From the NCBI GenBank assembly GCA_033239005.1, contig BSQZ01000028.1:2995001-3059000 (forward strand): DNA of 64,000 nucleotides, written 5' to 3'. This DNA is from Lamellibrachia satsuma. Lineage: Eukaryota; Annelida; Polychaeta; Sabellida; Siboglinidae. Position 1 is the stretch's first letter. Each line of letters starts with the position of its first letter. Shown one piece after another: positions 32,127 through 62,325 of the stretch. The notes below the pieces were generated by a model. That model was not told the origin of the DNA. It saw only the letters and a program-made list of their open reading frames with translations, and made no database searches. The translations under genes and the position numbers were made by a program.

Positions 32127-32132
32127 GTTATT
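32127..32132. other. Polinton target-site duplication, left (GTTATT)
   Basis: GTTATT directly abuts the left terminal repeat and is repeated exactly at 50625-50630 outside the right end. Six bp is the known target duplication length of Polintons. Confidence 0.92.
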
Positions 32133-33346: not shown

Positions 33347-33347
33347 T

Positions 33348-35061: not shown

Positions 35062-35063
35062 CT

Positions 35064-36345: not shown

Positions 36346-37448
36346 GTCTCGAATGAAGTCTTACCGAACGCGTGGCTAGTCTTTATAGTAGACTGCACCA
36401 GTGCCTTGGCATCGATCCAGCTGTTGAATTTGGAGGGGTAGCCGAACCATTTCACGAAAACTTGATTTCGTCCACCTACCTTGCGACGATCCAGGACCTC
36501 TTGCACGTAGAACAGTTTATCGGGGGGTACCAACACTTTCTGCAACTCCATTTCGTAGAAGGTACCTTCCAGTACTTCGCCGAGATCGTCCTTCAATCGA
36601 TACACGGGTGGAGCAGAGGGATGAACCTCGTGTATCGTGAAAATCTCTTCGCTCCAATTCGCCGTGTACCCCTTTTCGAACTTACCTTTGTACTTGCTGA
36701 TACGTACGCGATCCGACACGCGCAACTTGGGCACGCCCTTACCGTCGTGACCGTACAGTCGCTGCCACACCTTTTCCTGATTACGGTAACTCACCTGTGA
36801 AGGAGCCATGCCGATACTGCGGTGGTAGCTGTTGTTGTACGAATGCACCAGGTCCTGAAGGATGTTGATGTATCGCCACGTCTGGTGTTTCGTGAAGTAT
36901 CGCCACATGCGTGACTTCAACGTCCTGTTGAATCTTTCCACGATGCACGCCTTCGTCTCCGCGTTGTGCGTGGAGAAGTGATGGATGTTGTGCTTCTTCA
37001 ATAGAGCCTGGACGGATCTATTCAGAAATTCCTTTCCTTGGTCTGTCTGCAACACCTTTGGCCAGCCTTTGCTGAACGTGCTGTCAAGTGCCGCTACCAA
37101 CGACGCTGCGGACTTGTTCTTCATGGGAACACACCAGGCCACTTTCGAGAAGACGTCGATCACCGTGAGGAGAAAGGTCATACCGTCGTTGTGCTTTTTC
37201 AAATGCGACAGATCGACGAGATCGGCCTGCCACTGCTGATGCAGACCGCTCACGATGACGCGTCGTCTCTCGAAACGACGTCTAGCCGGCTTGTGTAGGG
37301 TATAGGCGTCCTGTTCCGACAACCATTCCGCGACCTTTTTTCTTGATATGTGTGTGACGCGTCGCAAGGCATCGGGTCCGCCGTAACTACCTACCCTTTT
37401 CGGATCGAAGTAGACCGTCCTAAGTGCTCGTTCTTTCTTCGGTGCCAT
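36342..37448 (-). CDS. INT: Polinton integrase (RVE, DD35E, chromodomain)
   Basis: 368 residues. Catalyses insertion of the linear element into host DNA, producing the 6-bp duplication. The N-terminus, VYFDPKRVGSYGGPDALRRV, is typical. The RVE core has Asp76 (QWQADLVDL), Asp136 (LQTDQGKEF) and Glu171 (KACIVERFNRTLKSR), a DD35E spacing. A C-terminal chromodomain (FYVQEVLDRRKVGGRNQVFV, KWFGYPSKFNSWID) probably tethers to chromatin. The start at 37448 is chosen because it shares its A with the stop (TAATG) of the tiny upstream membrane ORF. All catalytic residues are present, so this copy could be active. Confidence 0.93.
   Translation of the reverse strand: MAPKKERALRTVYFDPKRVGSYGGPDALRRVTHISRKKVAEWLSEQDAYTLHKPARRRFERRRVIVSGLHQQWQADLVDLSHLKKHNDGMTFLLTVIDVFSKVAWCVPMKNKSAASLVAALDSTFSKGWPKVLQTDQGKEFLNRSVQALLKKHNIHHFSTHNAETKACIVERFNRTLKSRMWRYFTKHQTWRYINILQDLVHSYNNSYHRSIGMAPSQVSYRNQEKVWQRLYGHDGKGVPKLRVSDRVRISKYKGKFEKGYTANWSEEIFTIHEVHPSAPPVYRLKDDLGEVLEGTFYEMELQKVLVPPDKLFYVQEVLDRRKVGGRNQVFVKWFGYPSKFNSWIDAKALVQSTIKTSHAFGKTSFET
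36381..36387 (-). promoter_or_regulatory. TATA box (TATAAAG)
   Basis: CTATAAAGAC on the minus strand, 36 nt upstream of the small membrane-protein ATG and inside the integrase 3' end. The spacing matches other TATA-ATG pairs of this element. Confidence 0.5.
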
Positions 37449-37609
37449 TAAAAGAGTTCCGATGGACTGACGGTTGTGACGTTTACTGCGCAGCACGGTG
37501 CGCAGCACGGTTCGTGACGAGTAAGAAAGAGTACGCTGATGTACACCAGAAGCCCCACTACCACACCCAAGACGATGACGAATGATCTATATTCTAGTAC
37601 TGTGATCAT
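37448..37609 (-). CDS. tiny membrane protein overlapping integrase start
   Basis: 53 codons beginning MITVLEYRSF. A single membrane helix (VIVLGVVVGLLVYISVLFL) is followed by a doubled cysteine motif (EPCCAPCC). Its stop shares a base with the integrase ATG (TAATG), and its start overlaps the preceding tiny ORF by 23 nt, as in tightly packed viral operons. I recognise no family. Function might involve virion or nuclear membranes. Too short for most gene finders. Confidence 0.5.
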   Translation of the reverse strand: MITVLEYRSFVIVLGVVVGLLVYISVLFLTRHEPCCAPCCAVNVTTVSPSELF

Positions 37610-37730
37610 ACTCTGCAGAGCAACTGTTGTAAAGATTTCGCACTACGGCGTCAGCAATCAAGTACAGTCCAACGCAAAATACTGTAACGACGACGGAACG
37701 GTAGTACGTGTCCTGTGGATCGTTCGACAT
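37587..37730 (-). CDS. tiny membrane protein upstream of integrase
   Basis: 47 codons starting MSNDPQDTYY, with one hydrophobic segment (SVVVTVFCVGLYLIADAVV) and a short polar tail ending DHSTRI. It lies 39 nt after the stop of the 272-residue gene and overlaps the next tiny ORF. No similarity recognised. Support comes from position, packing and the membrane helix, not from homology. Confidence 0.42.
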   Translation of the reverse strand: MSNDPQDTYYRSVVVTVFCVGLYLIADAVVRNLYNSCSAEYDHSTRI

Positions 37731-37769
37731 CGCAGTGCACACTGAGCTGTGGACACGTGTTGCAACGAC

Positions 37770-38588
37770 TTAAATGTCTTCCCAACTAGCCAATGACGTC
37801 AGTGCCTTGCGTTGACGTTCTGGAGGTGGGGTGAGCATGGAATGTTCCATTTGTCCGCGTCGACGAGCGAGGGGTGTCCAACTGAGCGATCTTCTTGCGC
37901 TACCACCACCACCAGAGCGAGGTGTAGCCGGTATTCGACGACGACCTGGAGTGGATGTGGTCGGTGTCGGTGCCTGGCGTATGTAGTCTCTCCTGGCGAC
38001 GTTACCGACCAACTCCATGGGCAGGTTCATGGCACGGAGTTGTCTTGCAAACGGTTGCCACCCCTTCGGATTGGTCTTTCTCTTGCGCAACACATCGTTC
38101 ACGAGATCCACCACGTTACTTCCGGCGATGGGCACACCCTCGTGTATCAGTTCGCCGCGGGCGGTCCAAGACATGTTTCTTTTCATGCGTTCCATCAACC
38201 GTCTGGCTTTGCCTTGCATGGTCTTGGGAACGGTATCCACGACGTCGGCTTCTATCTCGCTAACAGGAGCTTCCCCCGCCCCCGGCCCCGGCCCCGGCCC
38301 CGGCCCCGGCCCCGGCCCCGGCCCCGGCCCCGGCCCAGACTCGTTCACCGAGATCACTCGTGTCGGTTCCTTGGCGTGTTTATCGGACAAGACGTTATAC
38401 CGTTGCAACACCTGATTATACAATGTTACCTTGGTCCTGTCGTCGAGGTCCTTTCTGTCGAGGATGGCCGTCATCTCGTCATCGAGAGCTCGCACCTTCT
38501 TACCTAAGGTATCCGTCGGGGGTGGGGGTGATCGAAGCGTGTCCAACATTCGTGGATCTACCAAGGCCATCTTGCGTGCGTGTTCCAT
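37770..38588 (-). CDS. conserved Polinton protein of unknown function (272 aa)
   Basis: The C-terminal half contains RRLMERMKRNMSWTARGEL, GSNVVDLVNDVLRKRKTNP and GWQPFARQLRAMNLPMELVG, a block I recognise from other Polinton elements but cannot assign a function. The middle holds a Gly-Pro dipeptide run encoded by a CCGGCC hexanucleotide-like repeat (38278-38336), probably an expansion. The N-terminal third is charged and helical. The C-terminus is basic with Ser/Pro sites (ARRSLSWTPLARRR). The start codon immediately follows the stop of the upstream 133-residue gene. It may be a virion core or scaffold component. Confidence 0.65.
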   Translation of the reverse strand: MEHARKMALVDPRMLDTLRSPPPPTDTLGKKVRALDDEMTAILDRKDLDDRTKVTLYNQVLQRYNVLSDKHAKEPTRVISVNESGPGPGPGPGPGPGPGPGPGAGEAPVSEIEADVVDTVPKTMQGKARRLMERMKRNMSWTARGELIHEGVPIAGSNVVDLVNDVLRKRKTNPKGWQPFARQLRAMNLPMELVGNVARRDYIRQAPTPTTSTPGRRRIPATPRSGGGGSARRSLSWTPLARRRGQMEHSMLTPPPERQRKALTSLASWEDI

Positions 38589-38990
38589 CTAACCTCCCGA
38601 ACGAAGGTGGCGCGACCTGGTTGCTTGCGGGAGCAGCACCTCTCGAAGCAAGGGTAGAAACACCGAACTTGCCAACGGTGCTAGGAAGGCCGATAGGAAC
38701 CCTCCGCTCTGTCCCTCGCCGACCTGTCGGTTCAGCAAGAGGCGTCTTCTTCTACCAGCCGACGTTCGACTGTGAGCCAACTCCCGTAACCTCTTCCTGT
38801 ATTTACTCAAACGACGCCTCTGTAATGCAGACAATGGAATGTTCTGTTTTAATATGTTGTAGGCACACTCGGCTAGCGCACACAAAAGATCGGCGTCAGC
38901 GTTTTCGATGATGGCTCTTTTCAGTTTGTTGTTCTTGATCCTGTTCAGCGCCTGTATGCATATAATGTGTCTCTTCACCAGGGCAGACAT
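38589..38990 (-). CDS. small basic Polinton protein (133 aa), unknown function
   Basis: The start at 38990 (MSALVKRHIICIQALNRIKN) is supported by a TATA box at 39024-39032, 34 nt upstream. The chain continues with ADLLCALAECAYNILKQNIP and LSALQRRRLSKYRKRLRELA, then a basic RRRRLLL stretch and a hydrophobic C-terminal segment (GGFLSAFLAPLASSVFLPLL). This combination of a helical basic domain and a GGFL-hydrophobic tail is found next to the ATPase in many Polintons. A virion or DNA-condensing role is possible, not shown. The stop abuts the next ATG directly. Confidence 0.7.
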   Translation of the reverse strand: MSALVKRHIICIQALNRIKNNKLKRAIIENADADLLCALAECAYNILKQNIPLSALQRRRLSKYRKRLRELAHSRTSAGRRRRLLLNRQVGEGQSGGFLSAFLAPLASSVFLPLLREVLLPQATRSRHLRSGG

Positions 38991-39023
38991 GGTGGGAATG
39001 AAGAGACTATCCACGCGTGCGGT

Positions 39024-39032
39024 CTTTTTATA
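39024..39032 (-). promoter_or_regulatory. TATA box (TATAAAAAG)
   Basis: GGTATAAAAAGACC on the minus strand overlaps the end of the ATPase gene and precedes the 133-residue gene's ATG by 34 nt. Confidence 0.55.
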
Positions 39033-39654
39033 CCTTCGGCAAGTACACGTACTGAACACCGTCGTCTGGAAAGATGGCCGTGCGCAGACGCATGTCCTCG
39101 GGCGTGTCCTGCTTGAGATCGACCAATAGATAGCCGTACGGTACCGAGGTGGCGTCTTTAAAAGCCTCTTGAACGAATTTGGCGCGCCCCGGATACATCT
39201 GTCGAGCCAAGTGCGACATCTGCGATGCGTCACGAGGATTCTTGAACACCACCATGTATTGAGAATTCAGACTGATGGTACGACTCTCTTTGTTTTTGGG
39301 GAAAAGGTTCTGTACGAGATACAGCACGGACGTGTTCCTGTGGTGACTCTTTTTAGTGAACAAGGTCGTGACCCGTTCTTCCGTTTCTGCCATGAGATCG
39401 TCTATGACGATGAGGTTCCTCGTCGACGAATCGAACATGCTAGCACTCGGCAACCCTTCCTCGAAGCGCACGTCCATCAAGTCCATCGTTGCGTAGGCCT
39501 CTTGCCATTCTCCGTAACACCACGTGATCCGTTCGGGAGGAGGATCGATCATCGCAGCAGCGTGACGTAGCATACGCGTCACGAAAGTACTTTTGCCGCA
39601 TCCCGTCGGACCGGCGACGATGCACGTGAAAGGATGTTTCCACCGCGCGTCCAT
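39028..39654 (-). CDS. ATP: genome-packaging ATPase (FtsK/HerA type)
   Basis: 208 residues, the usual size for Polinton ATPases. Predicted to pump element DNA into capsids. Walker A is GPTGCGKST (residues 15-23) and Walker B is LIVIDDL with Asp85-Asp86. Downstream SVLYLVQNLF with SRTISLNSQYMVVF matches the family's sensor/arginine-finger region. Frame intact. It lies between the polymerase (39 nt from the polymerase stop) and the 133-residue gene. Confidence 0.92.
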   Translation of the reverse strand: MDARWKHPFTCIVAGPTGCGKSTFVTRMLRHAAAMIDPPPERITWCYGEWQEAYATMDLMDVRFEEGLPSASMFDSSTRNLIVIDDLMAETEERVTTLFTKKSHHRNTSVLYLVQNLFPKNKESRTISLNSQYMVVFKNPRDASQMSHLARQMYPGRAKFVQEAFKDATSVPYGYLLVDLKQDTPEDMRLRTAIFPDDGVQYVYLPKV

Positions 39655-39693
39655 GGTCGCTTATGAAAGACGACCGCAGTGCATCGTCCTTTT

Positions 39694-42600
39694 CTACACG
39701 TCCACCGGACCCGTGCTCACCCCGTCCTCGTGCACCACTCGTTTGGGATAGAAGTAGGTGAGAGCCGCTCGTTCCTGCACGTACGTCATCACGGTCGAGT
39801 GACGCACCCGGAACCCACGGTTCTTTCCACTTCCGCTCCGACGGTTGGTGAGCACCTCCAGGAACGCGTTCTTGTCGATGTCGTTGTGACGTTTGCTCAG
39901 TCCTTTGGTGCTGTATTTGTCGGTGGTTCCGAAACAATAGTTCGTCTTGCTGCACAACCCCACGAACCCGTCCCCGGACCATTCCACCTTGAACAGACCA
40001 GGTGTCCTCTTGTCGTAAGCCCTACGTGCTTTACAGCACGCCTCGTCGCCGACCCACGGTCTATTGGCGAGTCGACAGCGCACGTACTCGTTCCGATGAT
40101 GGTCGCAACATTCGGACGGCAACCATTCGGAGCGGTGCCGGAAGTAATGTTCTCGTAGTTCCGGAGTCACGAGGGCGTCGACGGACTCGCCGGCCAAGGC
40201 CAAATAGGCAGAATCTGTATCTGTCTCGCAGTACTGAAAAAGAGGGCGCTCCAGGTACCTGTCGATGAAGTCGTAGTAGAACTGTAACATGCGCATCTTG
40301 GCGTACTGCAGAACGAAGAATCCCACGTGTATGGGCAGGGTGTACGTGACGGTCTTCTTGTTCATCTCTATCTCGTACGCATCGTCCACGATGACATCGA
40401 GTTGTCGGAATCTCTTATCGTTGACCAAGAGCGATGCCGCCTTCTCCTTGCAATAATTGACGTCACGATGTCGGTCCACGTTGGTTATAGTCTTTCCGTA
40501 ACCCGAGTTCCCCAGCAACTTCATGGTGTCTGCGATGATGGCCTTGTGCGAGTGGACGTCTCCTTCGCGTCGCGCTGCGGACACTGCATCGCCGAACCGT
40601 CTGAAACACGGAACGGGATCGTACTCGATGACCTGATACACGTGCGTCACCTCGAGACCGTGGTCCATGTACCATCGCAGCAGAGGCGTGGCAAGCAGGA
40701 TCTTATCCCCTCGATAACTACCCACGAGCATGCGTCTCGGTGTCGTCATGATGTCGTGCTCCTCGGCGTATCGGCGCATGAACGGTCCGAGATCGTCTCG
40801 TGTCAGTCGGATGTTCTTGAACACGGGCTGCATCTCGGCAAAGTGTTCTCGCAATGCTTCCGGTATGCAAAGGTCACAATCGATCAGACCGAACACGGTT
40901 CCGGCACGCACGCCGCTCAGGATCTGTTGTGACGTCATCGTCCATCGTGCGTGACGTCGGCGCGGAAATGCAGCATCCAGAAGCTTTTTCACGACAGGAT
41001 CTCGTCTCGTCTGTTTCCACTCGCATTCCCACATCTCTACGACTTTGACAAAGTGACGGAGGTAGACGGTGTTCTTTCGGGTCTCTTCGAGCAGTTCAGC
41101 CATGGGTTTCCCGTTGACCTCGTTGACCTCTTTGCCAGTGCACGAGTGACCATGGAAAAAACATCCGTGGTACTGATAAGCCGTTTTCGTCTCGCTGCAC
41201 CACCCGTCCACCAGCAGTTTGCCTATTCTCTTCTCTCTACCGTTGATCTGGTGTCGTATGACGCGTCCCGTGCGTTCGGATTCCCAAGTCAACCATTCCG
41301 CGGCCATCTGACCGTACAGCTGCGCCGATTCCGGTCGGAAATCTTTCTCTTCCCGTCGTCGCGTGTACCATCCCATAGGCATGTCTTGCATGAGTGACCA
41401 CAAGTACAGGGCATTGGCATCGTATCCAACGATGGACCTACAAGGACGAGCGGCCTCTCCGTACTCGTTCTGACGTAGCGTGGTGACCCCTTTCTCGTGA
41501 TAGCGATGAAAAATGAGCGAAGCCCCGCCAACCACGTGATCTTTGACGAGATGATGAAGATCTTTATTCTTCTCGTTGAATATGGTAAAGTAGGTCTTCT
41601 CGGGAAGGTCGTTGAACAGGTAGAGCAAGGTCAGACCAGGTACGCTGATGCCTTGCTTGAACATGTCTATGCCACGTTGTTCGTAGAAGGCAAACTGTCT
41701 GTCGATGGCCTGCAGAAAGGGAACTACGTCTCTGTTGTTGTACCAGACGAGAAAGTCTCGCAAAGTCGTCATGGAATTATCGCGCCAGGCCTCTTGACAA
41801 CTGGCATAATCCTCGTCGGAGATACCTTCGTTCTTCAGTCGACTGAAGAAGGCCTGTTTCGATGGAAGTGCAGTGTCGTCGAGTCTCTCCAAACGGTCCA
41901 TGTACTCGTACGGGAAATGACCTTTTGTCACCTCGCATCCGTACGCCTTCAGATACTTGTCGTAACTGAACCCGGGAGCTATGTAGTTGGTCATGTCTAG
42001 GAATTTCAGCTGATCCGTCGAAAGACACATGAAAGTGTTGTTGCGTTTGATGACGAAAAAAGTACCGACACCCTCATTCTCTTCGTCTTTGTCGTCTTGT
42101 TCTTCTTCTTGTTCTTCTTGTTCCTTTGATTCGGTGGATAAGAAGTAGGGTATGAGAAACTGTTTGATGGCATTGAGATCATACTTACCCGAATTGAACC
42201 CGATGACAGGTAACTGATGCATCCAGCCATAGAGTTGTCCCATCAGCTTTTTGTATGGATTGGTCGTCGGACGAGATTTCTTCTTATCGATGGCTGATCG
42301 TGAGGCCTTCTCAGTTTCGTCCCATTTCGTCAGTTCCTCTGCGAGTTGATCCAAGACATCTTCGTACGAGTGTTTGATCTTGTCGTACGCGGCGTCACTC
42401 ATCGCTTGTAAGATATTCATCATTCTACTCACCAACTTGTTGGTGTCTCCGTCCGTGACGAGACATTGCACTCGCTCCTGACCGGGGACGTTGGATGCTA
42501 CGCTGACGCTCAGTGGAACGTGACGCGCCACCCAGTGGACCTTGTCACTGTCCGACGGAAGTTGTTCCGTGTCGAACCAACACTCGAAATCAAAGGTGGC

Positions 42601-43873
42601 TCGATACGGATAGTAGCGCAACGATTCAGCCACGCGAATGTTCTCGTCGTCCAGACGTTCGAACACCGATGATGTGGAATGGTACACGCCGCCAGGATAG
42701 ACTCGACGCACACCTCCCGTACACGTGCGCTCGTGTCGATACAGCAACCATGCCTTTTTCCATAACGAGTCATCGCACTTCCGACATCGATACGAGTTGC
42801 AGTACATGCAGACATCTTGGATGAATGAAAAATGTGTCCCGTGAAGGTTGAGATACATTGTTTCGGGGTACTTGCATAACGATCGACGAACCAGTTCGGC
42901 AGTCGACTTACCGTCCTCCTCGTTGACAAGACGGTACACGCACACATTCGTTTGGAACGTGGTCTCTACGCGATAGAGGTCATCCAGCGTGACCCCTGTA
43001 AATTCTTCCATAGGTACGTGATCTCGATCGTATGTCTCGTAGAGCGTCTTCACCGCCGGTTCCAATCGATATAGATCGCATCCTCGATGCAGGGCCAGAC
43101 ATCGGAACAGACACAGGTTATCTTTGTACCTCTTGTTATGGATGGGATCCGTTTCCAATCCGATGATGCTTTTCTTCCTTTTGATGTACGATGGTAGAGA
43201 GATCATGCCTACACATCCTATAGGATGATCGATGATGCGATTAACGAAAAAAGTGACATTCGTCACGAGTTCGCATACCCACGCAGAATCCGGTCTTTGA
43301 TTGATGGCCCATTGCAAGAGGTCGGGTTCTCGGATGCGTTCGAGAAATTTATCAAAGTCCTTGCTGTTGGCGACGAGACTGGGTTCGTCCAGGTAGCGTC
43401 CACAGCAATTACAAGAGGTATGATAGTACTTGTATTGACCCGTGTTCTTGTTTCTCAGAATGAACCCGTAACTGAGGTTAATCTTGAACGCATTGGTCTG
43501 TTCCTGGAACATGATCTTCAAAGACGGTTCCAAGTCGGTCGTGTCTAGCGTGATTAATCTGTAATCGTACCTGCATTGAAGTGGACCTCTGAACACGTGG
43601 GTCCGTATAGCAGACCAGTGCGCACGAACGACATCTAGCAACTCCGTCGACAGAGTATCGGCGAAGGGAAGTCGATCAGGCGGATCTAACGGATCTTCCT
43701 CGGTAACGAGCGGATGGTTTTGAGATGGGATAGTGTCTTCTCTTGTTGATCTCTTTGGTGCTGGTGGTTCGGTGACGTCGGTACACGCAGTTCGTGCGTG
43801 CATGGTCAGATTGTAACGTTTTTCGAACTTCCGTCCGCATTTCTTACACGCGTAGACGATGCTTCTACTACTT

Positions 43874-43924
<51 letters not shown>

Positions 43925-44166
43925 TCTCTACATACCGACCTTACGTGACGCTGTAGGTTGTTATATCTCCCGAAGGCGGCGCCGCATTTCTCGCATGCGT
44001 ATTTCGGTCTCTTTGCATAGTCGCTGCGTGGCGCCACCATAGGCGGTGCTATGGAGTATGAATGTAAGTCGCATGATGGTGTCGAGTGAGTACTCTGCAC
44101 GTGACGTTGTAGTTCTGCGCACGTGTCGAAGGCGACCTCGCAGTGACGACACTGGTGTTTTTCCAT
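39694..44166 (-). CDS. PolB: protein-primed DNA polymerase B with N-terminal zinc fingers
   Basis: About 1490 residues, fully open. Replicates the linear element from its ends. The N-terminus has three zinc fingers: C6/C9/H22/H27, C58/C61/H74/C79, and a third at about 105-127. A poly-Ser run (residues 82-97, from a CTA repeat at 43864-43924) separates fingers 2 and 3. Exonuclease motifs are FDFECWF (about 524), GFNSGKYDLNAI (about 655) and YNNRDVVPF (about 812). Polymerase motifs are DANALYLWSL (about 918), KLLGNSGYGKT (about 1222) and CETDTDSAYLAL (about 1315). A YQYHGCFFHGH element (about 998) typical of this polymerase type is present. The start at 44166 rather than 44241 follows from a TATA box at 44208-44215. 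All catalytic Asp residues are present. Confidence 0.93.
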
Positions 44167-44189
44167 GGCTGCATCTACAACTGAGAGGG

Positions 44190-44640
44190 AATGGACTCTC
44201 AGTACATCTATATAGTGCGTGCGAGGTGGATAACATGTCAATCATTAATAAGAGACGTTCCTATTGGTCAATTACTAATTAACATGGGTACTATTGACCA
44301 ATCAGCAATAAGAGACGTTCCTAGCTTGATTCCTATTGGTCAATTACTAATTAACTATTGACCAATCAGCAATAAGAGACGTTCCTAGCTTGATTCCTAT
44401 TGGTCAATTACTAATTAACATGGGTACTATTGACCAATCACGAATAACCTAACATGGGTACTATGGACTCTCAGTACATCTATATAGTAGGTGCGAGGTG
44501 GATAAGATGTCAATCATTAATAAGAGACGTTCCTATTGGTCAATTACTAATTAACATGGCTACTATTGTCCAATCACAAATGAGAGACGTTCCTAGCTTG
44601 ATTCCTATTGGTCAATTACTAAAATGGGGCGTTCCTAACT
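44190..44640. promoter_or_regulatory. duplicated promoter with CCAAT-box repeats
   Basis: At least five units carry AAGAGACGTTCCTA, ATTGGTCAATTACTAATTAA and ACTATTGACCAATCA. ATTGG/CCAAT boxes occur on both strands. The proximal TATA region (44190-44235) recurs at 44463-44507, 272 bp upstream. The array lies immediately 5' of the polymerase and probably holds its transcription-factor sites. Confidence 0.6.
44208..44215 (-). promoter_or_regulatory. TATA box of the polymerase gene (CTATATAG)
   Basis: Lies 42 nt before the preferred polymerase ATG. The same sequence with flanks (GGACTCTCAGTACATCTATA) is duplicated at 44461-44500. Confidence 0.55.
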
Positions 44641-44751
44641 TGGACACTTAGTATTGTCCATCATAATTGACTACGGGTTTCCCTTTCGTGAAGAGGGGTG
44701 TCAGTCGTGCGAATAATGAAGGTACAACACGTTCCATTCCATTTTGACTAT

Positions 44752-44757
44752 TTTATT
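44752..44757 (-). terminator. AATAAA on minus strand, end of early block
   Basis: Within TTTTATTCAATATAATACAT, closely matching the sequence around the other AATAAA at 32476. Confidence 0.55.
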
Positions 44758-44832
44758 CAATATAATACATTGTCTATGAAATATATATACTGATATGAAA
44801 AGATAGGCTTCTCTATATATAAGTTGATGATG

Positions 44833-45042
44833 ATGACTGACTTGTGGGTTTTTACACCACGACAGAGGTCACGTGTGTGTGAATAATGACTGACTTGTGG
44901 GTTTTTACACCACGACAGAGGTCACGTGTGTGTGAATAATGGCTGACTTGTGGGTTTTTACACCACGACAGAGGTCACGTGTGTGAATAATGACTGACTT
45001 GTGGGTTTTTACACCACGACAGAGGTCACGTGTGTGAATAAT
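44833..45042. repeat. 53-bp tandem repeat, 4 copies
   Basis: Units contain GTGGGTTTTTACACCACGAC, AGAGGTCACGTGTGTG and GAATAATGACTGACTT. Related in sequence and placement to the repeats at 32580-32735. AT-rich imperfect repeats (CTAATGATATATAA) follow to 45400. Confidence 0.85.
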
Positions 45043-45406
45043 TGTATATAGAGAAGTCGATCTCTTCATGCATAAAGATTACTATATGTATTTCATAGAC
45101 ACTAATGATATATAACAACTACATAGATTAAAGTCAATAACAATTACTAAAGACACTAATGATATATAAAAAATAAATACATAAGATTAAAGTCAATATA
45201 AAAACACTAATGATATATAACAACTACATAGATTAAAGTCACTAATGATATATAAAAAATAAATACATAAGATTCAAATCAGTTACTCTGTGTGACACTA
45301 ATGATATATATAACAACTAAATACATAAGATTAAATTCATTAACAATTACTAAAGACACTAAACAATTACTATAAATTCATCAACAATTACTAAAGACAC
45401 TAAACA

Positions 45407-45636
<230 letters not shown>

Positions 45637-45664
<28 letters not shown>

Positions 45665-46254
45665 ACTTCGTGTATTAAGTATGCTTGCATCTCCTCTGAC
45701 AGTAGCCGAGTGCATCCTTCTGCACATACATTGACAGTAGCTTCGGCTACTGTCAGAGGTGTATGGTGTGCTCTATGCATGATGAGATGCGTGAATGCTT
45801 CTGTGATCATGGTATTTGCTATAGATGGATTTAAAATGTTCGGATTGCTTGGCGTAGATTCTAATATGATTGTTTCGTTGCAGCAGCGGTCGCAGGTGCA
45901 TGGCTGCTGCTGCTTCATGTCGGAGGATGGCGGTGTTATCAATGTCTTGTTCATTGTTTCAAACGATGACGACGACGACGACGGTGGGGGTGGCGGTGAC
46001 ATCGGTGCGGTTGGCGCTGTCACCGCCGTTGCTGCTGCTGCTGCTGCTGCTGGCGCTGGCGCTGCCGCCACTGCTGCTGCGGTTGGTGCTGCAAATCGAC
46101 GTTTTCTGTCGAGCACCAACCGCAAGTCATTCGCAGCCAACGGCGGCAATTTTCGTTTTCGTCGCTGCTGTTGCGGTGGTGGTGCTATCTTGTCATCGTC
46201 GACGTCATCGGCTTTTTCGTACGCCTCACGCAATTGGCGTAGACCGTTATGGAT
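45637..46254 (-). CDS. alternative exon B of the early spliced locus (Pro/Ala-rich, nuclear)
   Basis: Open from the acceptor CCGTCTATAG|ATC at 46255/46254 to TAA, 205 codons, with no ATG near the beginning. The phase-0 donor at 47330 would join 24 residues of the RPA-like gene in frame, giving a 229-residue protein. Features: acidic DDVDDDK, basic QQQRRKRKLPP (candidate nuclear signal), a poly-Ala/Pro run and poly-Ser (microsatellite coded), a CTCDRCC motif, then a helical C-terminal domain (ANTMITEAFTHLIMHRAHHT, LIHEVACFNPWML). No family recognised. Splicing exon A to this acceptor would instead stop after two codons, so exon B is probably an alternative to exon A. Splicing is predicted only. 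Confidence 0.5.
45693..45759. other. overlapping inverted repeats in exon B
   Basis: CCTCTGACAGTAGCCGA (45693-45709) pairs with 45743-45759. The right arm also belongs to a tight hairpin TGACAGTAGC-TTCG-GCTACTGTCA (about 45732-45755). The two folds are mutually exclusive. Confidence 0.6.
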
Positions 46255-46285
46255 CTATAGACGGGACAACAAAAGACACACCTGT

Positions 46286-46897
46286 TTAATCAATGTCAGG
46301 AACTTCGTTCTTACCTGCATATAGACTGGCTATGGTCGCTCTGATCGTGTCTGCCATATCGACACACCATTGTCTTTTACCAACCCTCTCCTCCATCGCT
46401 ATGACAACCCAGCGCATGACGTGATTGATCAGACCGGAAGACGGTACGTAATATTCACCTTCCGATAAATCTAATATACGCTCAATCTCGTTACATGCAT
46501 AACGAACACAAGCTGCGTCTATCAATGTGTTGAAGGTGTTCTGGTTCATCATGGCTTCTGTACGATTTCGTATTCTGTATATGTTCATTGCTGTCGCCTG
46601 CATATCGTTGCCGCCACCACCACTGCTGCTGCTGCTGCCGCTGCTGCCGCTGCTGCTGCTTATGGTCATAGCTGTTTCGCTGCTTACGCTAATAACCGCA
46701 TCTTTATTTTCCTCGTCTGTTATACACAGAGTCGGTTCGGTAGAGGAAGTGATGGATGGTGTGGATGGTAACAGATTACGTTGTTCATACGAGTCTAACC
46801 ACTGCTGTACCTTTTTATTCATGGTATTTTCCCAGTCCCGTATCTTTTCATTGCTGTTGTCAGAGCTGGTGGCGATGGCATTCTCTTTGTCTTCCTC
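46286..46897 (-). CDS. alternative exon A of the early spliced locus
   Basis: Open from the acceptor CATTCTCTTTGTAG|GAG (46898/46897) to TAA at 46286. It is 203 codons, or 227 residues when joined to the 24-residue leader exon 47330-47401. If unspliced, it could start at the internal ATG at 46822 (178 residues). Features: acidic EEDKENAIATSSDNSNEKIR, a Ser/Gly run (46605-46665, microsatellite coded), then a helical domain with TFNTLIDAACVRYACNEIER and GLINHVMRWVVIAMEE. The domain is faintly reminiscent of a histone-fold, which I would not claim. No family recognised. A donor (GCAG|GTAAGA) near the 3' end would, if used to 46254, end the frame two codons later. Confidence 0.52.
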   Translation of the reverse strand, partial: EEDKENAIATSSDNSNEKIRDWENTMNKKVQQWLDSYEQRNLLPSTPSITSSTEPTLCITDEENKDAVISVSSETAMTISSSSGSSGSSSSSGGGGNDMQATAMNIYRIRNRTEAMMNQNTFNTLIDAACVRYACNEIERILDLSEGEYYVPSSGLINHVMRWVVIAMEERVGKRQWCVDMADTIRATIASLYAGKNEVPDID

Positions 46898-47401
46898 CTA
46901 CAAAGAGAATGCCTCGTCAAGAATTTCCAACTCTGACGCAATGTAGTTTACGTACTCCTTGTTGACACGCTTTTTAATGGTCGCTCTGACACGGACCCCC
47001 CTCAACACAGACAGGGCAGCCACCCGTTCGTCTTCTGACTTCATTGCAACGTACTGGTTCGCGGTGAAGCCAAGGATTTTAACTGCCAGCGTATCAAATA
47101 CGCTAGCCCAACATTCACTGCCTATGCTGTCCCTCAGGAGGACACGCAGGTTGAATCTATACGTCGGAGACCGCTGCCGTTTGTGTGTCGAACAATAGTA
47201 GCCCTTACTGGTACTACGCTGGACTCCTACGGAACACTCTGAGCATGCCAGATATACTACATATCTCTCCTGCCGTGCGGTAGACACTATGGTTAACGGT
47301 GTTGGAAACTTGTATGTTCCATCGCTTACCTCCGACTGCAAACGCGTCAGGTTCATCATGTGCTCGTCATCGAAAAGCTGCTGTTGCGCGGCGGCGGCCA
47401 T
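46898..47401 (-). CDS. RPA1-C-like OB-fold ssDNA-binding protein (retained-intron form)
   Basis: 167 residues from ATG 47401, which lies 85 nt after a TATATAAG box; ATGs further upstream precede that box. The core YVVYLACSECSVGVQ, YYCSTHKRQR, YRFNLRVLLRDSIGSECWAS, VFDTLAVKILGFTANQYVAM matches the C-terminal DNA-binding domain of replication protein A subunit 1. The zinc ribbon uses C53-x2-C56 and C70-x2-H73. Likely role: single-strand DNA binding during protein-primed replication. Codons 25 to the stop lie within a predicted phase-0 intron (47329-46898, 432 nt) whose last bases TAG are also the stop. Intron retention gives this protein; splicing removes the OB fold. Homology is a motif judgement. 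Confidence 0.68.
   Translation of the reverse strand: MAAAAQQQLFDDEHMMNLTRLQSEVSDGTYKFPTPLTIVSTARQERYVVYLACSECSVGVQRSTSKGYYCSTHKRQRSPTYRFNLRVLLRDSIGSECWASVFDTLAVKILGFTANQYVAMKSEDERVAALSVLRGVRVRATIKKRVNKEYVNYIASELEILDEAFSL
47330..47401 (-). CDS. shared leader exon of the early spliced locus (24 aa)
   Basis: Encodes MAAAAQQQLFDDEHMMNLTR plus four residues and ends in TCGGAG|GTAAGC, a near-consensus donor in phase 0. Both acceptors downstream (46897 and 46254) are in frame with it. Confidence 0.5.
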
Positions 47402-47485
47402 CTTGCTTCGGTAGAGTGAGAGAGAGACTGTCGAGTGAGTGAATCGCTGCGAGAATCGTGTTATGACAGTTGCAGCTACGGGTCC

Positions 47486-47493
47486 CTTATATA
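47486..47493 (-). promoter_or_regulatory. TATA box of the early spliced locus (TATATAAG)
   Basis: GCTATATAAGGGACCC on the minus strand, about 85 nt before the ATG at 47401; it lies just downstream of the NADAR gene's stop. Confidence 0.65.
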
Positions 47494-47594
47494 GCGGGCC
47501 GGTTGCATGGCGCGTCTGTGTTATATTTACCAGCTGGCCCTCTGGTATGTATTGCGCAATCACCGCGCATTCCTATCGCTATGCGCGCCAGACT

Positions 47595-48062
47595 TTATGG
47601 CGCCTGTTTTTTTCGAATGAACTCGCGGCAATTCACGAGTATCTGGCCCAACACGTTCTGTCCACGCTGTCCAGTGTAAGTGGACATGCTCCAGTATCCC
47701 TCCCTACTTCTCACATTTTCCATTAACGGCGCTGGATATGTTTCTAATAATAGTTTGCGTAATGTCGTGTCGCGAAATTTAATAGCAACTAACGCTCTCA
47801 TTACATATCGTCTCTGTTTGTTCCACTGCGCGCGTAACTCCTGTTTCTCTCGGATGGTCTTGCTTAGATATTTCGCCTGTAGTCCGGTTCTTGTGGCAAG
47901 CATTTTCTGCGCCGTGTCGACATCTCCATAAAAGATGCATTTCCTGTACTGGTATGCAGCTTCAACTGTGTTAAAAACATGACCCCATGCATGTATTCTA
48001 CATGCGTAGAAATTGGATAGAAACGAGGTTTCTCCACGGAAGTATATAGCAGGAGGAGTCAT
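47595..48062 (-). CDS. NADAR-domain protein (YbiA/DUF1768-like)
   Basis: 155 residues from MTPPAIYFRGETSFLSNFYA. The ATG at 48062 follows a TATA box by 36 nt, whereas an ATG at 48122 precedes it. Family signature: FLSNFY, HVFNTVEAAYQYRK, KMLATRTGLQAKYLSK, MRALVAIKFRDTTLRKLLLE, YWSMSTYTGQRGQNVLGQIL. NADAR proteins act on NAD/ADP-ribose derivatives, and some remove ADP-ribose from nucleic acid bases. In this element it might counter a host ADP-ribosylation response or act in nucleotide metabolism. That role is inference. The frame is intact and full length for the family. Adjacent to the RPA-like locus. Confidence 0.85.
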   Translation of the reverse strand: MTPPAIYFRGETSFLSNFYACRIHAWGHVFNTVEAAYQYRKCIFYGDVDTAQKMLATRTGLQAKYLSKTIREKQELRAQWNKQRRYVMRALVAIKFRDTTLRKLLLETYPAPLMENVRSREGYWSMSTYTGQRGQNVLGQILVNCREFIRKKQAP

Positions 48063-48097
48063 TCTGATTTTATGCTGTTTAATGTTACATGCACTGT

Positions 48098-48106
48098 ATT
48101 TATATA
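48098..48106 (-). promoter_or_regulatory. TATA box of the NADAR gene (TATATAAAT)
   Basis: GTATATAAATACAG on the minus strand, 36 nt upstream of the ATG at 48062. Confidence 0.6.
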
Positions 48107-48612
48107 CATAAAATGCATGCATAAATTAATGCATATATAAATTAATGCATGCATATATAAATTAATGCATATGCATTAATGTCCACCAGTTTCCATGCAG
48201 CAATAACTTCCATAAGTACATGGTGTTTTTTATGCGTGATAAATGAGTTTTCGGATTCAGCGTTAGTTAGTTGACAAGCTTATCGAGGGAGGAGTTGTTT
48301 ACTGTTTCATGCAGAATGTCTGGAATCGATACAACGTTGGTTGAGAACTGGTTGACTTTGTTTTTTACACGTGATAAATGAGATTTTGCTTTCAGCATCG
48401 ATTCTCTGACACTTCTGTGACAAACTTATCGAACTTGTTTTTCGTTGTGAAGGATGACTTATTTTTCTAGCGGATTTGGGAGTTGATTATTAGCATTCCA
48501 GTTTAATAATAATTTTATTATGGGTGTTTTCTAACATAACTTTCTGACTTTGATGGATTTGTTATTGTGTTATAGCAGCTTATGTCAGCTGTCTGCATTG
48601 TTTAGCTTTTCC
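48107..48612. promoter_or_regulatory. divergent intergenic region with AT-rich palindromes
   Basis: Between the minus-strand NADAR gene and the plus-strand spliced gene. 48110-48180 holds four copies of ATAAATTAATGCAT joined by ATGCAT palindromes. The rest contains two diverged copies of a block with CACGTGATAAATGAG / GCGTGATAAATGAG, TTGACAAGCTTATCGA-like sequences. No open frame. Probably regulatory. Confidence 0.45.
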
Positions 48613-48621
48613 TATATAAAG
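48613..48621 (+). promoter_or_regulatory. TATA box of the plus-strand gene (TATATAAAG)
   Basis: CCTATATAAAGCCG, 106 nt upstream of the ATG at 48719. A second TATA (TATAAATAG, 48967-48975) lies within the intron and could drive a shorter transcript. Confidence 0.6.
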
Positions 48622-48718
48622 CCGTCCTCAGACAAGGTATTTCTTTATACACTTACCGCCATTCTGCAACCGTCGTTCTGCTGCTGCTGCTGCTGCCGTT
48701 GCCTCTGACGTCATCACG

Positions 48719-49754
48719 ATGCTGTCTAGTGTCGCTTTGTTTTCCGACTTGATGCAAGCCTATATCGAGATTGGCGTTGCGTTGAGCCTGATACTGTATC
48801 GATCGTAAGTACATATTGTCCGTGGCTGTTTGGTGATACGTACTCCTGTGTTTTTAAAAGGTTTTAAAAGCGTCTACATAACACACACAGTTTAACTTTA
48901 AGAGACATCTTTTATGCGTCTGTGACCTAGTTACAATGCCTCTTGCTAAGCGGCTGGTAGTCTGATTATAAATAGCACGCGCGCCGCGTCGGCCGAGCGA
49001 GGTCGCCGTGTCAGTCTTATCAGTTTTCGATGACCTAGTTTCTACGCGCTTCTACTGCTGTCGGTGTAGCATTACATACGCCGTGGTGGATCCAAAGTAC
49101 ACCGCTCACAGCAGGTCTACTCATAGTTTATTATTAACAGATGTGCATGTGCTATTTAATGTATATACGATGCTTTTAACACAGTCCTTTACCAATGGCT
49201 CAATGTGTCTTTCACTCTGATTTTTCAGCTTCCATAGAATCCACTGGGCGTTCGTAATGAAAGAGTTACGTGATCGTACGCCGCTCGTAGTCAACGACGA
49301 CATCGTCGACGATGGTTATCAGTCCGAGAGTTGGGACAACGAGTGCGATGACTACGCTGCATTTCTAGACCACAGAAAATTATGGTCTGCTGTCATGGTG
49401 GAGTTAGGAATGGTGCGGCCAATAGTGCGGGTTACCATGGAAATTGCCATGGGCTGCAATGCTATGGGTCAACAGAGACAGCAACCTGCTAACGTTTACG
49501 CCGCGTTGGTAAAACACAGAGCCCTGTGGCCGGCTGTCATGCAAGAAATGAAACTATTTAAATCACGTTCTCAGATAGAAATGGAAATGCTGTGGGGGTT
49601 TAACGATAAAGGGGAAATAGCAATACCACGTTCCGTGATAGAAATGGAAAAGGCGTGTAGGGAGTGCAGCAATGTAGTAAAACACCCAGTACAACGACCT
49701 ACAAAACTTATTGACAGAAGAGGAAAGTCACTGCCACCACTGAACTTGTGTTGA
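48719..49754 (+). CDS. two-exon plus-strand Polinton gene with triplicated HRxxWxxVMxE motif
   Basis: Exons 48719-48804 and 49229-49754. Donor CGATC|GTAAGT and acceptor TGATTTTTCAG|C join in frame (86 + 526 nt, 203 residues). If unspliced, the second exon could start at ATG 49257. The motif H-R-x-x-W-x-x-V-M-x-E-L/M occurs at residues 31-42, 77-88 and 125-136, each after an aromatic/Ala stretch (DDYAAFLDHR, NVYAALVKHR). The two full units each extend to about 40 residues with a common M-E-x-x-x-G-x-N segment (TMEIAMGCNAMGQ, EMEMLWGFNDKGE). Exon 1 encodes a hydrophobic helix (IGVALSLILY). Acidic between units; Cys pair near the C-terminus. No family recognised. Only gene on this strand of the element. 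Confidence 0.6.
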
Positions 49755-50457
49755 AATGGAAAACAAGATGAACACTATGTTTCAATATATGACTTTATAT
49801 GCTTTAACATGGCTATTTTTAAATGAACTAATGAAAGATATTTATATGACTTTATATGCTTTATATATGGCTATTTTTAAATGAAATAACGAACGATATT
49901 TATATGCTTTAATATGATTAAATATATGGCTATTTTTCTAAATAATTAATATGATTTTATGTGTTTTAATATGATTTGATATATATGGTTATTTTTTAAA
50001 TAATGATATTACTATATTTATATGATTTTATGTGCTTTAATATGATTTGATATATATGATTTGATATATATGGCTATTTTTTTTAAATATTGATATTACT
50101 ATATTTATATGATTTGATATATAACTATTTTTAAATAATTATATTACTATATTTATATGATTTTATGTGCTTTAATATGATGTATCGTTATTAAATATTA
50201 AAGTTTCTTGATGATTTCATTCAATGAGGTGTTGTGTCTGTTAGCAACAGGGTAACGCGGGGCACAACGAACCAACGGTTAGGGTATCGCGGACTACATC
50301 GAACCACGGATTATATGTCTTGGTATAAAATTACTCCTCAAGGATCGGGGTAGCGCTCACATAGGCTAGCGGTCACTACGTTAGGGTAGCGGTCACTACT
50401 GAGGTCAAGGGTCACCACACATGAGATCAACAGGTCGGGATCATGTCAACATGTTGG
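49755..50457. other. AT-rich degenerate repeats, then subterminal region
   Basis: 49790-50210 consists of diverged units with TTTATATGCTTTAATATG and GGCTATTTTTAAATAA. 50240-50450 carries GGTAGCGGTCACTAC-type direct repeats before the right terminal repeat. No open frame of note. No AATAAA for the plus-strand gene; ATTAAA occurs near 50190. Confidence 0.5.
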
Positions 50458-50624
50458 GGTTATGACCGTTAGGGTTATCTCCAGTCGCTAGGGGGCGCTC
50501 GTGGTGGATGTAGGTCACCGCTAGGGGGCGTTGGGGGCTACCCAGAAGTCACGTGACCGGAAGTTACTGGGGTGCTCTTTACTGGGCTGCTCTTTTGATC
50601 CCCCAAAAGCACACTATAACTACT
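50458..50624 (-). repeat. Polinton right terminal inverted repeat (167 bp)
   Basis: Inverse of 32133-32292, with a 7-bp insertion. Ends GCACACTATAACTACT, followed directly by GTTATT. Confidence 0.95.
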
Positions 50625-50630
50625 GTTATT
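50625..50630. other. Polinton target-site duplication, right (GTTATT)
   Basis: Exact copy of 32127-32132. Confidence 0.92.
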
Positions 50631-50642
50631 GCTGGCGCCGCC

Positions 50643-52251
50643 AGCTCAGAACTGTACAGCCACAACACCAACGGAGACCCAGTAGTACTAAACTGTCCAC
50701 AGACTACTGAAGAGGACGACTACCCCATTCTTCGTGAGGAAGTAGAGGCTGCAGTAAAGTCTCTGAAAAAAGGAAAGTCAGCTGGAATTTATAACATACC
50801 AGCAGAACTGGTTCAAGCTGGGGGAGAAGCCTTGATTACCACACTTACAACAATCTGCAACAAGATCTGGCAGACAGGAGAATGGCCCACCCCATGGACT
50901 CAGTCACTGATCATCACACTTCCCAAGAAAGGTAACCTACAGATGTGCCAAAACTACAGAACAATCAGCCTCATCAGCCACCCGAGCAAAGTCATGTTGA
51001 AGATACTACTCAACAGACTCAAACCCCAGGCAGAAGAGATTATCGCTGAAGAACAAGCGGGTTTTCGAGCAGGACGGAGCACCATTGAACAGATCTTCAA
51101 CCTTAGAATCCTTTGCGAGAAACACCTTCAACATCAGCAAAGCCTGTATCATGTCTTTATAGATTTCAAGAAGGCCTTTGATAAGGTATGGCATGCGGCC
51201 CTATGGGCAACCATGAGGAAGTACAACATTGGCTCCAAGCTTGTCCGAACAATTGAACACCTATATGACAATGCCACCAGTGCAGTAACCTTCAACAGCA
51301 GCATAGGAGACTGGTTTCGAACAACTGTTGGAGTTCGACAAGGATGCCTACTATCACCAACGCTCTTCAACATTTTTCTGGATAATGACTGATGCTTTAG
51401 AAAACCATCAAGACACTGTCAGCATTGGAGGCAGGACAATCACCAACCTTCGTTTTGCTGACGACATCGACGGCCTAGCAGGAGATGAACAAGAACTAGT
51501 CAATTTAGTGGAGCACCTTGAGAAAACATCTTCATCATACGGCATGGAGATCAGTGCCGAAAAGACCAAACTGATGACAAACAGCACACAAGGCATCAGC
51601 ACAGAGGTCAAAGTTAATGGACAGAGACTTGAGGCAGTAACAAGCTTCAGGTACTTGGGATCAATTATCACAGATGAGGGTTCCAAACCGGAGATACTTG
51701 CCAGGATTGCACAGACAACAGCAGCACTAACAAGGTTGAAACCCTTATGGAACGACAGGAACATCACGGTCAGTTTGAAAATAAGGCTGATGCGCTCCCT
51801 TGTCATGTCCATCTTTCTGTACGCTTGTGAAACATGGACCCTTTCAGCAGATCTACAGAAGAGGATACAAGCCATGGAAATGAGATGCTTCCGGAAGATC
51901 TTGCACATATCATACAAAGACCATGTTACTAACGATGCTGTCCGTAACAAGATCAAACAAGCCATCGGACCATATGACGACCTTCTTACAACAGTTAAGA
52001 AGCGTAAACTGAAGTGGTACGGTCATGTATCACGATCATGTGGCCTTGCAAAGATTATCTTGCAAGGTACCGTAAGAGGGGGGAGACGAAGGGGTATACA
52101 GAAGAAGAGGTGGGAAGACAACATCAAAGAGTGGACAGGAATGGAGTTCGCTGACTCCCAGAGGGCTGTAGAGAACAGGGAAACGTGGAGAGAGCTGGTT
52201 AGAAAGTCATCAATGGTGCCCCAACGATCCTTACGGGTTATGGGAAAGTGA
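50643..52251 (+). pseudogene. 5'-truncated LINE reverse transcriptase with frameshift
   Basis: Homology starts near 50643 (SSELYSHNTNGDPVVLN), 18 bp after the Polinton end, so the endonuclease and N-terminus are missing. RT motifs: SLKKGKSAGIYNIPAELVQA, QNYRTISLISHPSKVMLKIL, EEQAGFRAGRSTIEQI, VFIDFKKAFDKVWH, GVRQGCLLSPTLFNIFL. A small deletion at about 51378 shifts frame. The second half carries FADDIDGLAG, FRYLGSIITDEGSKPEILAR, and the C-terminal LKWYGHVSRSCGLAKIILQG. It resembles the RTE-type/craniofacial-2-like non-LTR elements of invertebrates; clade assignment is tentative. Dead copy. Confidence 0.85.
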
Positions 52252-55215: not shown

Positions 55216-56155
55216 TATAAACCGCAGGGGAGATTTCCGGCTGAGATCTGAATGTGTTTATGTGTACCCGAAGTCTTCTTAATGACAAATGTATATTTGT
55301 GGTCTGCGGTGTATGACAAGAACTACGACTGAAACGTTGTATTTAAAAGACGTTTATTGAAAGTGACATCACTTTGATACATACGTGAACATTAAACAGA
55401 AGATATGTTGACGACGTTTCCGTGTAATTTCACATTCCTTCATTTCGTGACGGGATATCGCCGCCAACCCAGAACCGGTCTCCCGGTGCCCTTGACGCCG
55501 AACTGTGCCACGTCTGCATGCCGCTTCAGACGATGGCCGACAGCCGAGTCTGGTCGCGTAAACGAGAACGGGAATTACATAGAACAATTGAAGAAACGGT
55601 GTAAGCGCGCGTATGAGTCAGCTACTCACGCTAGCTGGCTGTAGACGGCGAGATTCAAGACTGAATAAAACACTTTTAATAATAATCACATTCCTTTTCA
55701 TTGCCACGTTGACAATAAGTTCTGTAATTAACATATACTTTACCATTCGGATTTCATGAGAGAGAACAGAACTAGCGTGGTCATGATAATTAAAAAGCTG
55801 TAGAGACGCCTTTATCTACGTGGGAATTTTTTACTGACCAAAACCTTTTGGTTTTACCATACATCACATGCTTCGTACTAGCGTCCACATAAATAAAAAT
55901 ATAACCATTGTAACATAAGTTCATAACATCGCTATAAATTCAAGAACATTCAAGGGTACTTAATGACATCTTCAAATTCAAGAACATTCGGGGATCTGTG
56001 TGAGCCCTGAACATAACATTATCAGATTACATGCGTAATTGTGTGACTTCTTAATTACCACTTGAGGGTCATCGTAGTAAAAATTCTTAAACTATTAAAA
56101 TCGCTTCTTTTTATATACACTAGAACAACCAGGGGAAATGAAGAAGTAGAAGATA
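55216..56155. other. no supported gene; possible minus-strand 3' end
   Basis: A minus-strand open frame (55369-55587) ends just before AATAAA (TTTATT at 55349-55354). This could be the terminal exon of an unrecognised gene, but no domain or splice model supports it. Confidence 0.25.
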
Positions 56156-56156
56156 A

Positions 56157-57242: not shown

Positions 57243-62325
<5,083 letters not shown>

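Follow-up and report, generated by a model that had tools for sequence, protein, structure and literature searches.

One start codon for three proteins? A putative alternatively spliced locus in a Polinton-like element of Lamellibrachia satsuma

Introduction

How might an open reading frame (ORF) of 205 codons be translated when it has no ATG near its start and opens directly behind an in-frame stop codon? This question is raised by a locus in the annelid Lamellibrachia satsuma (assembly GCA_033239005.1, contig BSQZ01000028.1, forward-strand positions 2,995,001 to 3,059,000). That stretch of 64,000 nucleotides, here called the window, contains a complete Polinton/adintovirus-like element, and on the minus strand of the element lies a compact group of three ORFs. 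The first encodes a protein resembling a domain of replication protein A (RPA), and the others are called ORF2 and ORF3. Splicing that draws several proteins from one gene is known from small DNA tumour viruses. A preliminary description made from the letters of the window had proposed something similar here: a short leader that is either read through into the RPA-like protein or spliced to one of two other frames. Our analysis favors, with a probability of roughly 0.68, one transcription unit from which three proteins would arise, depending on how intron 1 and the segment 46897-46315 are used.

Layout of the locus and its splice signals

We searched the genome (735 Mb, 279 contigs) with a 601-base query that returned 357 candidates, and we scored the best 40. 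The alignment used throughout consists of the window and 34 of the 39 other scored places, giving 35 rows, with 33 rows for acceptor 2 and ORF3. These copies all come from one genome and are related by ancestry, so conservation counts among them are not independent. Splice sites on both strands of the element were ranked with a position matrix that represents a general metazoan consensus. The features of the locus are listed below in window coordinates, with a slash marking the exon boundary within a splice site.

47487-47493, minus strand: TATA box, TATATAAGG in all rows and CTATATAAGG in 35/35 aligned rows
47330-47401, minus strand: exon 1, a 24-codon leader with its ATG at 47401; start context AGCAAGATGGC, strong, in 35/35 rows
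47324-47332, minus strand: donor 1, GAG/GTAAGC, phase 0 (splice matrix and alignment)
46898-47329, minus strand: intron 1, 432 nt, kept in the RPA-like reading (splice matrix and alignment)
46898-47401, minus strand: RPA-like ORF, unspliced product of 167 aa, stop TAG at 46900-46898
46897-46920, minus strand: acceptor 1 region ending TTCTCTTTGTAG/G (splice matrix and alignment)
46286-46897, minus strand: ORF2, 203 codons, open 46897-46289, TAA at 46288-46286
46309-46317, minus strand: donor 2, CAG/GTAAGA, phase 1, GT site at 46315
46255-46314, minus strand: intron 2, 60 nt, with a pyrimidine tract and TATAG at its end; ATTAAA at 46290
45637-46254, minus strand: ORF3, 205 codons, open 46254-45640, upstream in-frame stop TAG at 46257-46255
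44752-44757, minus strand: AATAAA, the sole one between ORF3 and the PolB ORF and a candidate poly(A) signal for the full-length RNA

Direct reading and scoring bore out the core of the preliminary description, which had claimed a 24-codon leader ending in the phase-0 donor GAG/GTAAGC and a 432-nt intron, a multiple of three, whose retention yields a zinc-ribbon OB-fold protein with a stop codon TAG that is itself the acceptor. Within the element, donor 1 ranks 8th and donor 2 (46315) 4th among 2735 GT sites, while acceptor 2 (46254) and acceptor 1 (46897) rank 15th and 30th among 2017 AG sites. The strong donor and the two strong TAG acceptors are in phase 0 throughout, and each acceptor abuts an open frame of more than 200 codons. 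Other phase-0 donors upstream of 46254 score far below the 10.2 bits of 47330: those at 47024, 46811 and 46688 reach 3.6-4.9 bits and no others exceed 3 bits. We conclude that the donor and acceptors are of consensus strength in compatible phase, which confirms the layout.

Both acceptor TAGs have a double role. The one at 46900-46898 is the stop of the RPA-like ORF as well as the AG of acceptor 1, and the one at 46257-46255 is both the in-frame stop before ORF3 and acceptor 2. They rank third and sixth among the element's 407 TAGs, the remaining four of the top six lying on the plus strand, and, when the 25 open stretches that reach 150 codons are compared, ORF2 and ORF3 have the highest-scoring TAGs at their upstream edges; this rank test is post hoc, devised once the layout was known. 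Intron 1 spans a whole number of codons (432 nt), so that ORF2 and the RPA-like ORF lie in one continuous frame, and readthrough of the TAG is therefore formally possible. ORF3 is in a different frame from the RPA-like ORF and in phase with donor 1, which is located 433 nt upstream of acceptor 1 and 1076 nt upstream of acceptor 2. Scanning for three TATA strings gave no second match between 47401 and 44000.

The preliminary description had also proposed a comparison of related copies, and this comparison agrees with it. Donor 1 reads GTAAGC in 34/35 rows, with the GT lost in L038; acceptor 1 (TTTGTAG/GAGGAA) is identical in 35/35 rows and acceptor 2 (CTATAG/ATCCA) in 33/33. The GT of donor 2 is present in 33/33 rows within a variable context (CAG, CGG, TAG or GAG before the boundary; GTAAGA, GTAACA or GTAAAA after it). 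Among 33 rows, only L024 has a stop codon in the leader. The RPA-like frame terminates precisely at the acceptor TAG in 30/35 rows, ORF2 is open to its usual stop in 28/33, and more than 170 codons of ORF3 stay open beyond the acceptor in 30/33. All three frames are open as expected in 20/33 rows. Downstream, exactly one AATAAA occurs in each of 20/20 stretches taken from copies, at ~44708-44786 by ungapped mapping.

The proposed unit would run from the TATA box at 47493 through the start codon at 47401 to the distal poly(A) signal at 44757. RNA left unspliced at 47330 would encode the leader and an OB/zinc-ribbon domain like DBD-C of RPA70, and such RNA may also terminate early at hexamers within ORF2. 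Splicing of 47330 to 46897 would join the leader to ORF2, removing the OB domain together with its stop codon. Splicing of 47330 to 46254, with 46897-46255 skipped, would join the leader to ORF3, for which the leader would be the sole source of a start codon. Donor 2 suggests that 46897-46315 could behave as a cassette exon whose inclusion would give ORF2 with a short new end and whose skipping would give ORF3; use of this donor is uncertain. Reaching ORF3 as a continuation of ORF2 through 46315 can be set aside, as phase 1 would be joined onto phase 0 and, worked out by hand, the reading would hit a stop no more than eight bases into exon 3.

ORF3 is coding without a conserved start codon

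Of the two downstream frames, ORF3 is the one that codes without a start codon of its own, ORF2 having an internal ATG. Its product would have a basic N-terminal part, a middle rich in Ala, Pro and Ser, and a conserved C-terminal part. Across the 30 long rows the first in-frame ATG falls anywhere from codon 24 to codon 93, and its position is common only within subgroups. By contrast with this scatter, IHNGLRQLREAYE stands directly after acceptor 2 in 31/33 rows, the exceptions being L019, which has a stop, and L023, which has one change.

The pattern of substitution shows coding from very near the acceptor. Codons 1-3 are invariant among the 33 rows and variation starts at codon 4. Counting a variant as shared when two or more rows have it, we find shared variants at 0/13, 0/13 and 9/13 of the first, second and third positions of codons 1-13 (Fisher 3.4e-6). 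When columns are restricted to those filled in 25 rows or more, codons 1-25 give counts of 1/22, 0/21 and 11/21 (4.7e-6); with all 75 positions taken, they give 4/25, 1/25 and 12/25 (7.5e-4). Over 46254-46150, columns with at least 25 rows contain 18 synonymous and 5 non-synonymous shared variants; the other sense frames give 0:24 and 5:18. Insertions and deletions in ORF3 are multiples of three in 40 of 51 distinct events. Since the coding pattern is present from codon 4 and an in-frame stop lies directly before codon 1, translation of ORF3 comes from upstream of codon 4. ORF3 is thus translated from, or nearly from, acceptor 2; splicing into it would be the simplest explanation, and we regard the pattern as strong indirect evidence for such splicing.

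An antisense ORF (45413-46324, plus strand) overlaps ORF3, and codon periodicity alone cannot separate the two because their third positions coincide. We rejected it on stop codons: over 46254-46150 it is stopped in 12/33 rows, compared with 1/33 for ORF3. ORF3 has two relatives in other contigs, at 56 and 64% identity over 42% of its length.

ORF3 is also the most variable of the three frames. In the same rows, 135/589 of its positions (45640-46254) carry shared variation, about three times the level in the RPA-like ORF (35/429) or ORF2 (39/502; 46318-47329 for these two). This excess suggests recombination near intron 2 or a mosaic origin.

ORF2

ORF2 has an acidic start, a Ser-rich middle and a conserved C-terminal part, with an internal ATG at 46822. 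The preliminary description had called the two spliced products acidic and basic low-complexity proteins in frame with the leader. The frames hold, but the proteins are not merely low-complexity, as each has a conserved C-terminal part. ORF2 has 49 relatives in other contigs, at 46-76% identity, and its C-terminal part is conserved in an alignment of 29 of them. Nine contigs are apparently common to the match lists of ORF2 and the RPA-like protein, which suggests that the two are linked in other elements. In two of the 49 relatives, P0085 and P0086, the leader is fused in frame to a portion of ORF2, with the OB domain absent. With an invariant acceptor 1, ten ATGs between 47401 and 46822 and a strong start context at 47401, it is likely that ORF2 is reached by splicing, a weaker case than that for ORF3.

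Searches for the function of these proteins gave little. Against PHROGs and PDB sequences, the best E-values for ORF2 and ORF3 were 0.025 and 0.09, which we take as chance, and scans of IMG/VR found no relatives. We could assign no fold to ORF2: its model has a predicted local distance difference test score (pLDDT) of 50 and no PDB match with E <= 0.001. A likeness of this model to Bcl-2/Mcl-1 amounted to scattered rows at E 3-10 and is not evidence.

The RPA-like protein and the leader

The product of the unspliced frame is more readily recognized. It matches PF08646 (Replication factor A C-terminal, the DBD-C domain of RPA70) with E 2.9e-12, its model has a pLDDT of 83.6, and the best PDB match is RPA itself (4gop_C, E 1.4e-8). 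Sequence and predicted fold both indicate an OB fold with an inserted zinc ribbon, and the presumed zinc ligands C53, C56, C70 and H73 are at least 90% conserved in 33 aligned rows. In sequence, predicted fold and zinc ligands the protein thus matches RPA70 DBD-C; unlike that domain, it is a free-standing single OB domain with a short leader, outside the trimeric RPA. It has 38 relatives and is probably a single-stranded DNA-binding protein for the element's own replication. A candidate Rb-binding motif (LXCXE) was dismissed: the window protein reads LACSE inside the zinc knuckle, a place at which its aligned relatives have such strings as IACSQ or ISCSQ.

The two ends of this protein bear on the RNA signals. 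Its last seven residues lie past the final strand and are modelled with low confidence. The ending FSL occurs in 26/38 relatives and is encoded by the pyrimidine tract of acceptor 1, and we infer that this tail is maintained by the RNA signal. At the other end, the model places the latter half of the leader immediately before the OB fold at fair to high confidence, so the leader may be partly structural and not a free docking peptide.

Each unit of an array on contig C21, at ~8.916-8.931 Mb (L044, L045), also carries this gene. Six units lie ~2.7 kb apart, and each comprises the equivalent of window 46710-47681 (promoter, RPA-like gene and start of ORF2) plus a further ~1.75 kb that holds a different small gene; at the end of the array, the final unit continues into the right part of an element. 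An accessory gene pair appears to have been amplified in tandem here. The small gene in L045 (815-1189, minus strand) contains the motif LWSAVMVEL, which by eye is similar to LWPSVMAEL in a small ORF of the window (49257-49754, plus strand).

Objections and alternatives

Several observations weigh against three proteins from one alternatively spliced unit. The relatedness of the copies within one genome takes weight from every conservation count, and conservation of the donor 1 GT is partly explained by the Val/Ser codons of the RPA-like protein. Coding evolution is weaker in the remainder of ORF3, with synonymous to non-synonymous ratios of 31:35 and 2 stops in the middle and 21:25 and 1 stop in the C-terminal part (control frames for the latter, 5:41 and 7:39); 11 of the 51 insertions and deletions have lengths not divisible by three, and a single alignment gap accounts for 8 of these. 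Shared variants in the ORF2 domain, 3 synonymous to 10 non-synonymous, have no purifying ratio. The ORF2 ATG at 46822, 25 codons in, is kept in 32/33 rows in a fair context (ACCATG). P0085 and P0086 may simply reflect deletions, or a gene caller that allows for introns may have produced them. The distant RPA-like relatives P0034, P0035 and P0036, from other contigs, lack the terminal FSL, in which the pyrimidine tract of the acceptor is embedded, so acceptor 1 may be restricted to one lineage. The non-coding part of intron 2 has 0/31 shared variants, compared with 10/199 in the 5' region; this difference is not significant (p=0.37), and we dropped a claim of constraint on the intron.

The idea of a single poly(A) signal for the unit also had to be withdrawn, because conserved hexamers lie inside ORF2, and this slightly lowered our confidence in the proposed unit. 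Internal hexamers comprise AATAAA at 46819 (35/35) and 46708 (30/34) and ATTAAA at 46978 (35/35) and 46290 (33/33), and they make a single full-length RNA uncertain. Conservation of the AATAAA at 46819 proves nothing in itself because it also encodes the Asn-Lys of a conserved MNKK. Use of the internal hexamers would truncate the RNA inside or beyond the RPA-like frame and may offer another way to select the RPA-like form.

The objections to ORF2 meet in an explanation that we consider unlikely but serious: only ORF3 is spliced (47330 to 46254), and ORF2 comes from unspliced RNA, by readthrough of the TAG at 46900-46898 or by initiation at ATG 46822. The frame shared with the RPA-like ORF and the retained ATG fit this explanation, and the 25 codons ahead of that ATG are too invariant, at 2 shared variants in 75 positions, to prove that they code. 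However, the TAG sits in a strong acceptor that is unchanged in all 35 rows, and unspliced RNA has ten further ATGs, in three frames, between 47401 and 46822. In addition, five rows with a disrupted RPA-like frame keep ORF2 open, although such copies may be in decay and the break in L024 is inside the leader. The claim that splicing leads to two proteins has strong indirect support for ORF3, which codes from the acceptor with no conserved ATG, and weaker support for ORF2.

The acceptors could instead take another 5' exon, either a trans-spliced leader or one transcribed from a promoter farther upstream, for instance that of the neighboring NADAR-domain gene. Trans-splicing is known in several animal phyla, a TATA-like site lies upstream at 48106, and both acceptors are kept in every row that covers them. 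Such an exon would nevertheless have to bring a start codon to ORF3, which most trans-spliced leaders do not have, and donor 1, with the right phase and strength, is close upstream of both acceptors; we find a foreign exon quite improbable. We give less credence still to a coincidental layout among decaying copies, with ORF2 and ORF3 as remnants or the antisense ORF as the true gene. At least one of the three frames is broken in 13/33 rows, as such decay would have it, but the codon-position pattern already largely refutes this explanation, the antisense frame is the one more often stopped, and both ORF2 and ORF3 have diverged relatives. Finally, ORF3 might initiate without splicing at a non-AUG codon just past the stop at 46257-46255, for example ATC at 46254. 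Invariance of codons 1-3 in 33 rows, with coding from codon 4, would suit this idea. However, over 1.1 kb of RNA, with a strong ATG and numerous others, would precede this start, which coincides with the element's 15th-best acceptor of 2017, and we rate the idea the least probable of all. One spliced unit with a common leader is thus the reading we retain; that the spliceosome uses these sites, and that ORF2 is made by splicing, we infer from the sequence.

The element and its surroundings

The three-ORF locus lies on the minus strand between the NADAR-domain gene and PolB. The element that carries it is delimited by the following features.

32133-50624, no strand assigned: complete Polinton/adintovirus-like element with the locus, 18.5 kb
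32133-32292 and 50458-50624: inverted-repeat arms (inverted-repeat search)
32127-32132 and 50625-50630: 6-bp direct repeats GTTATT flanking the element (spotted by eye)
47598-48122, minus strand: NADAR-domain gene (PF08719, E 3.4e-19), adjoining the three-ORF locus

Terminal inverted repeats and a 6-bp target-site duplication, the latter identified by eye, are hallmarks of Polintons. The element also encodes an integrase with a chromodomain (Pfam rve E 8.6e-15, Chromo E 7.7e-8) and a PolB frame of 1515 codons that matches DNA_pol_B_2, the organellar/viral type (E 1.4e-6, 27.9 bits with a cut-off of 25.8). A packaging ATPase frame has a weak match to Adeno_IVa2 that is above the cut-off (E 3.2e-5), and an adenovirus-type protease frame has a weak match to Peptidase_C5 that is below the curated cut-off (E 7.4e-4). 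No Pfam family matches the two frames presumed to encode the major capsid and penton proteins. The PolB frame (39697-44241, minus strand) has C2H2-type zinc fingers at its N-terminus (PF00096, E 7.9e-8). A literature search found no paper pairing 'polinton' with 'NADAR'.

LINE-like reverse-transcriptase frames, recognized by eye at 50553-52251 (plus strand), adjoin the right end of the Polinton. In the host flanks, 16174-17940, 56055-56819 and 59653-61077 are long open frames of tandem minisatellite repeats.

Discussion

If the three products are made as proposed, regulated early splicing would extend beyond the tumour-virus families, and Polintons would act as nuclear viruses reliant on the RNA-processing machinery of the host. 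The ratio of isoforms would link expression of a replication protein to that of two regulators. ORF2 and ORF3 may be such regulators, or host-interaction proteins, and their balance may change over the cycle of the element; the promoter and the RPA-like product are what suggest the term 'early'. Plain ORF callers may overlook genes of this kind, as the counts of relatives illustrate: 2 for the ATG-less ORF3 and 49 for ORF2.

In the literature searched, whose coverage was partial and did not include the founding adintovirus paper (reportedly Starrett 2021), we found no report of a spliced early region in Polintons or adintoviruses. The element resembles Adintoviridae and animal Polintons in its PolB, its integrase with a C-terminal chromodomain and perhaps, going by weak matches, in an adenovirus-like protease and a packaging ATPase. 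Adintoviruses are defined, with mention of candidate oncogenes, in the available part of PMC11071296, and 'oncoid' genes are mentioned for them in that of PMC10812802; unlike the locus described here, neither a spliced early region nor an RPA-like gene is mentioned in those parts. The portion of PMC8363768 consulted does not address adintovirus splicing. Elsewhere, excerpts describe a dinoflagellate Polinton-like virus with long gaps that lack GT-AG sites (PMC12721341) and Polinton-like viruses that carry group I introns (PMC12220804).

The locus proteins have no Pfam match to adenovirus E1A/E4 or papillomavirus E6 proteins, and leader-plus-OB, ORF2 and ORF3 have none to T-antigen, J domain or viral helicase. 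The likeness to tumour viruses is one of arrangement. Adenovirus E1A/E4 and papillomavirus E6/E6* likewise use alternative splicing to express a number of early proteins from a single promoter, and in E6 the retained-intron form is the full protein. We suggest, tentatively and at a little under even odds, a Polinton lineage in which a three-way early switch arose separately from polyoma- and adenoviruses. There, a single start codon with its leader would serve an RPA-type single-stranded DNA-binding protein when the intron is kept, ORF2 when the cassette is included and ORF3 when it is skipped. The closest parallel is the polyomavirus early region with its large T and small t, where a common N-terminal exon is followed by an internal coding segment and stop whose retention or removal decides the protein. 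By analogy, and implying no relatedness, the L. satsuma locus would work in the same way, differing in that its retained module is an RPA-type OB fold, its proposed products number three, and its carrier is a linear, integrating PolB element.

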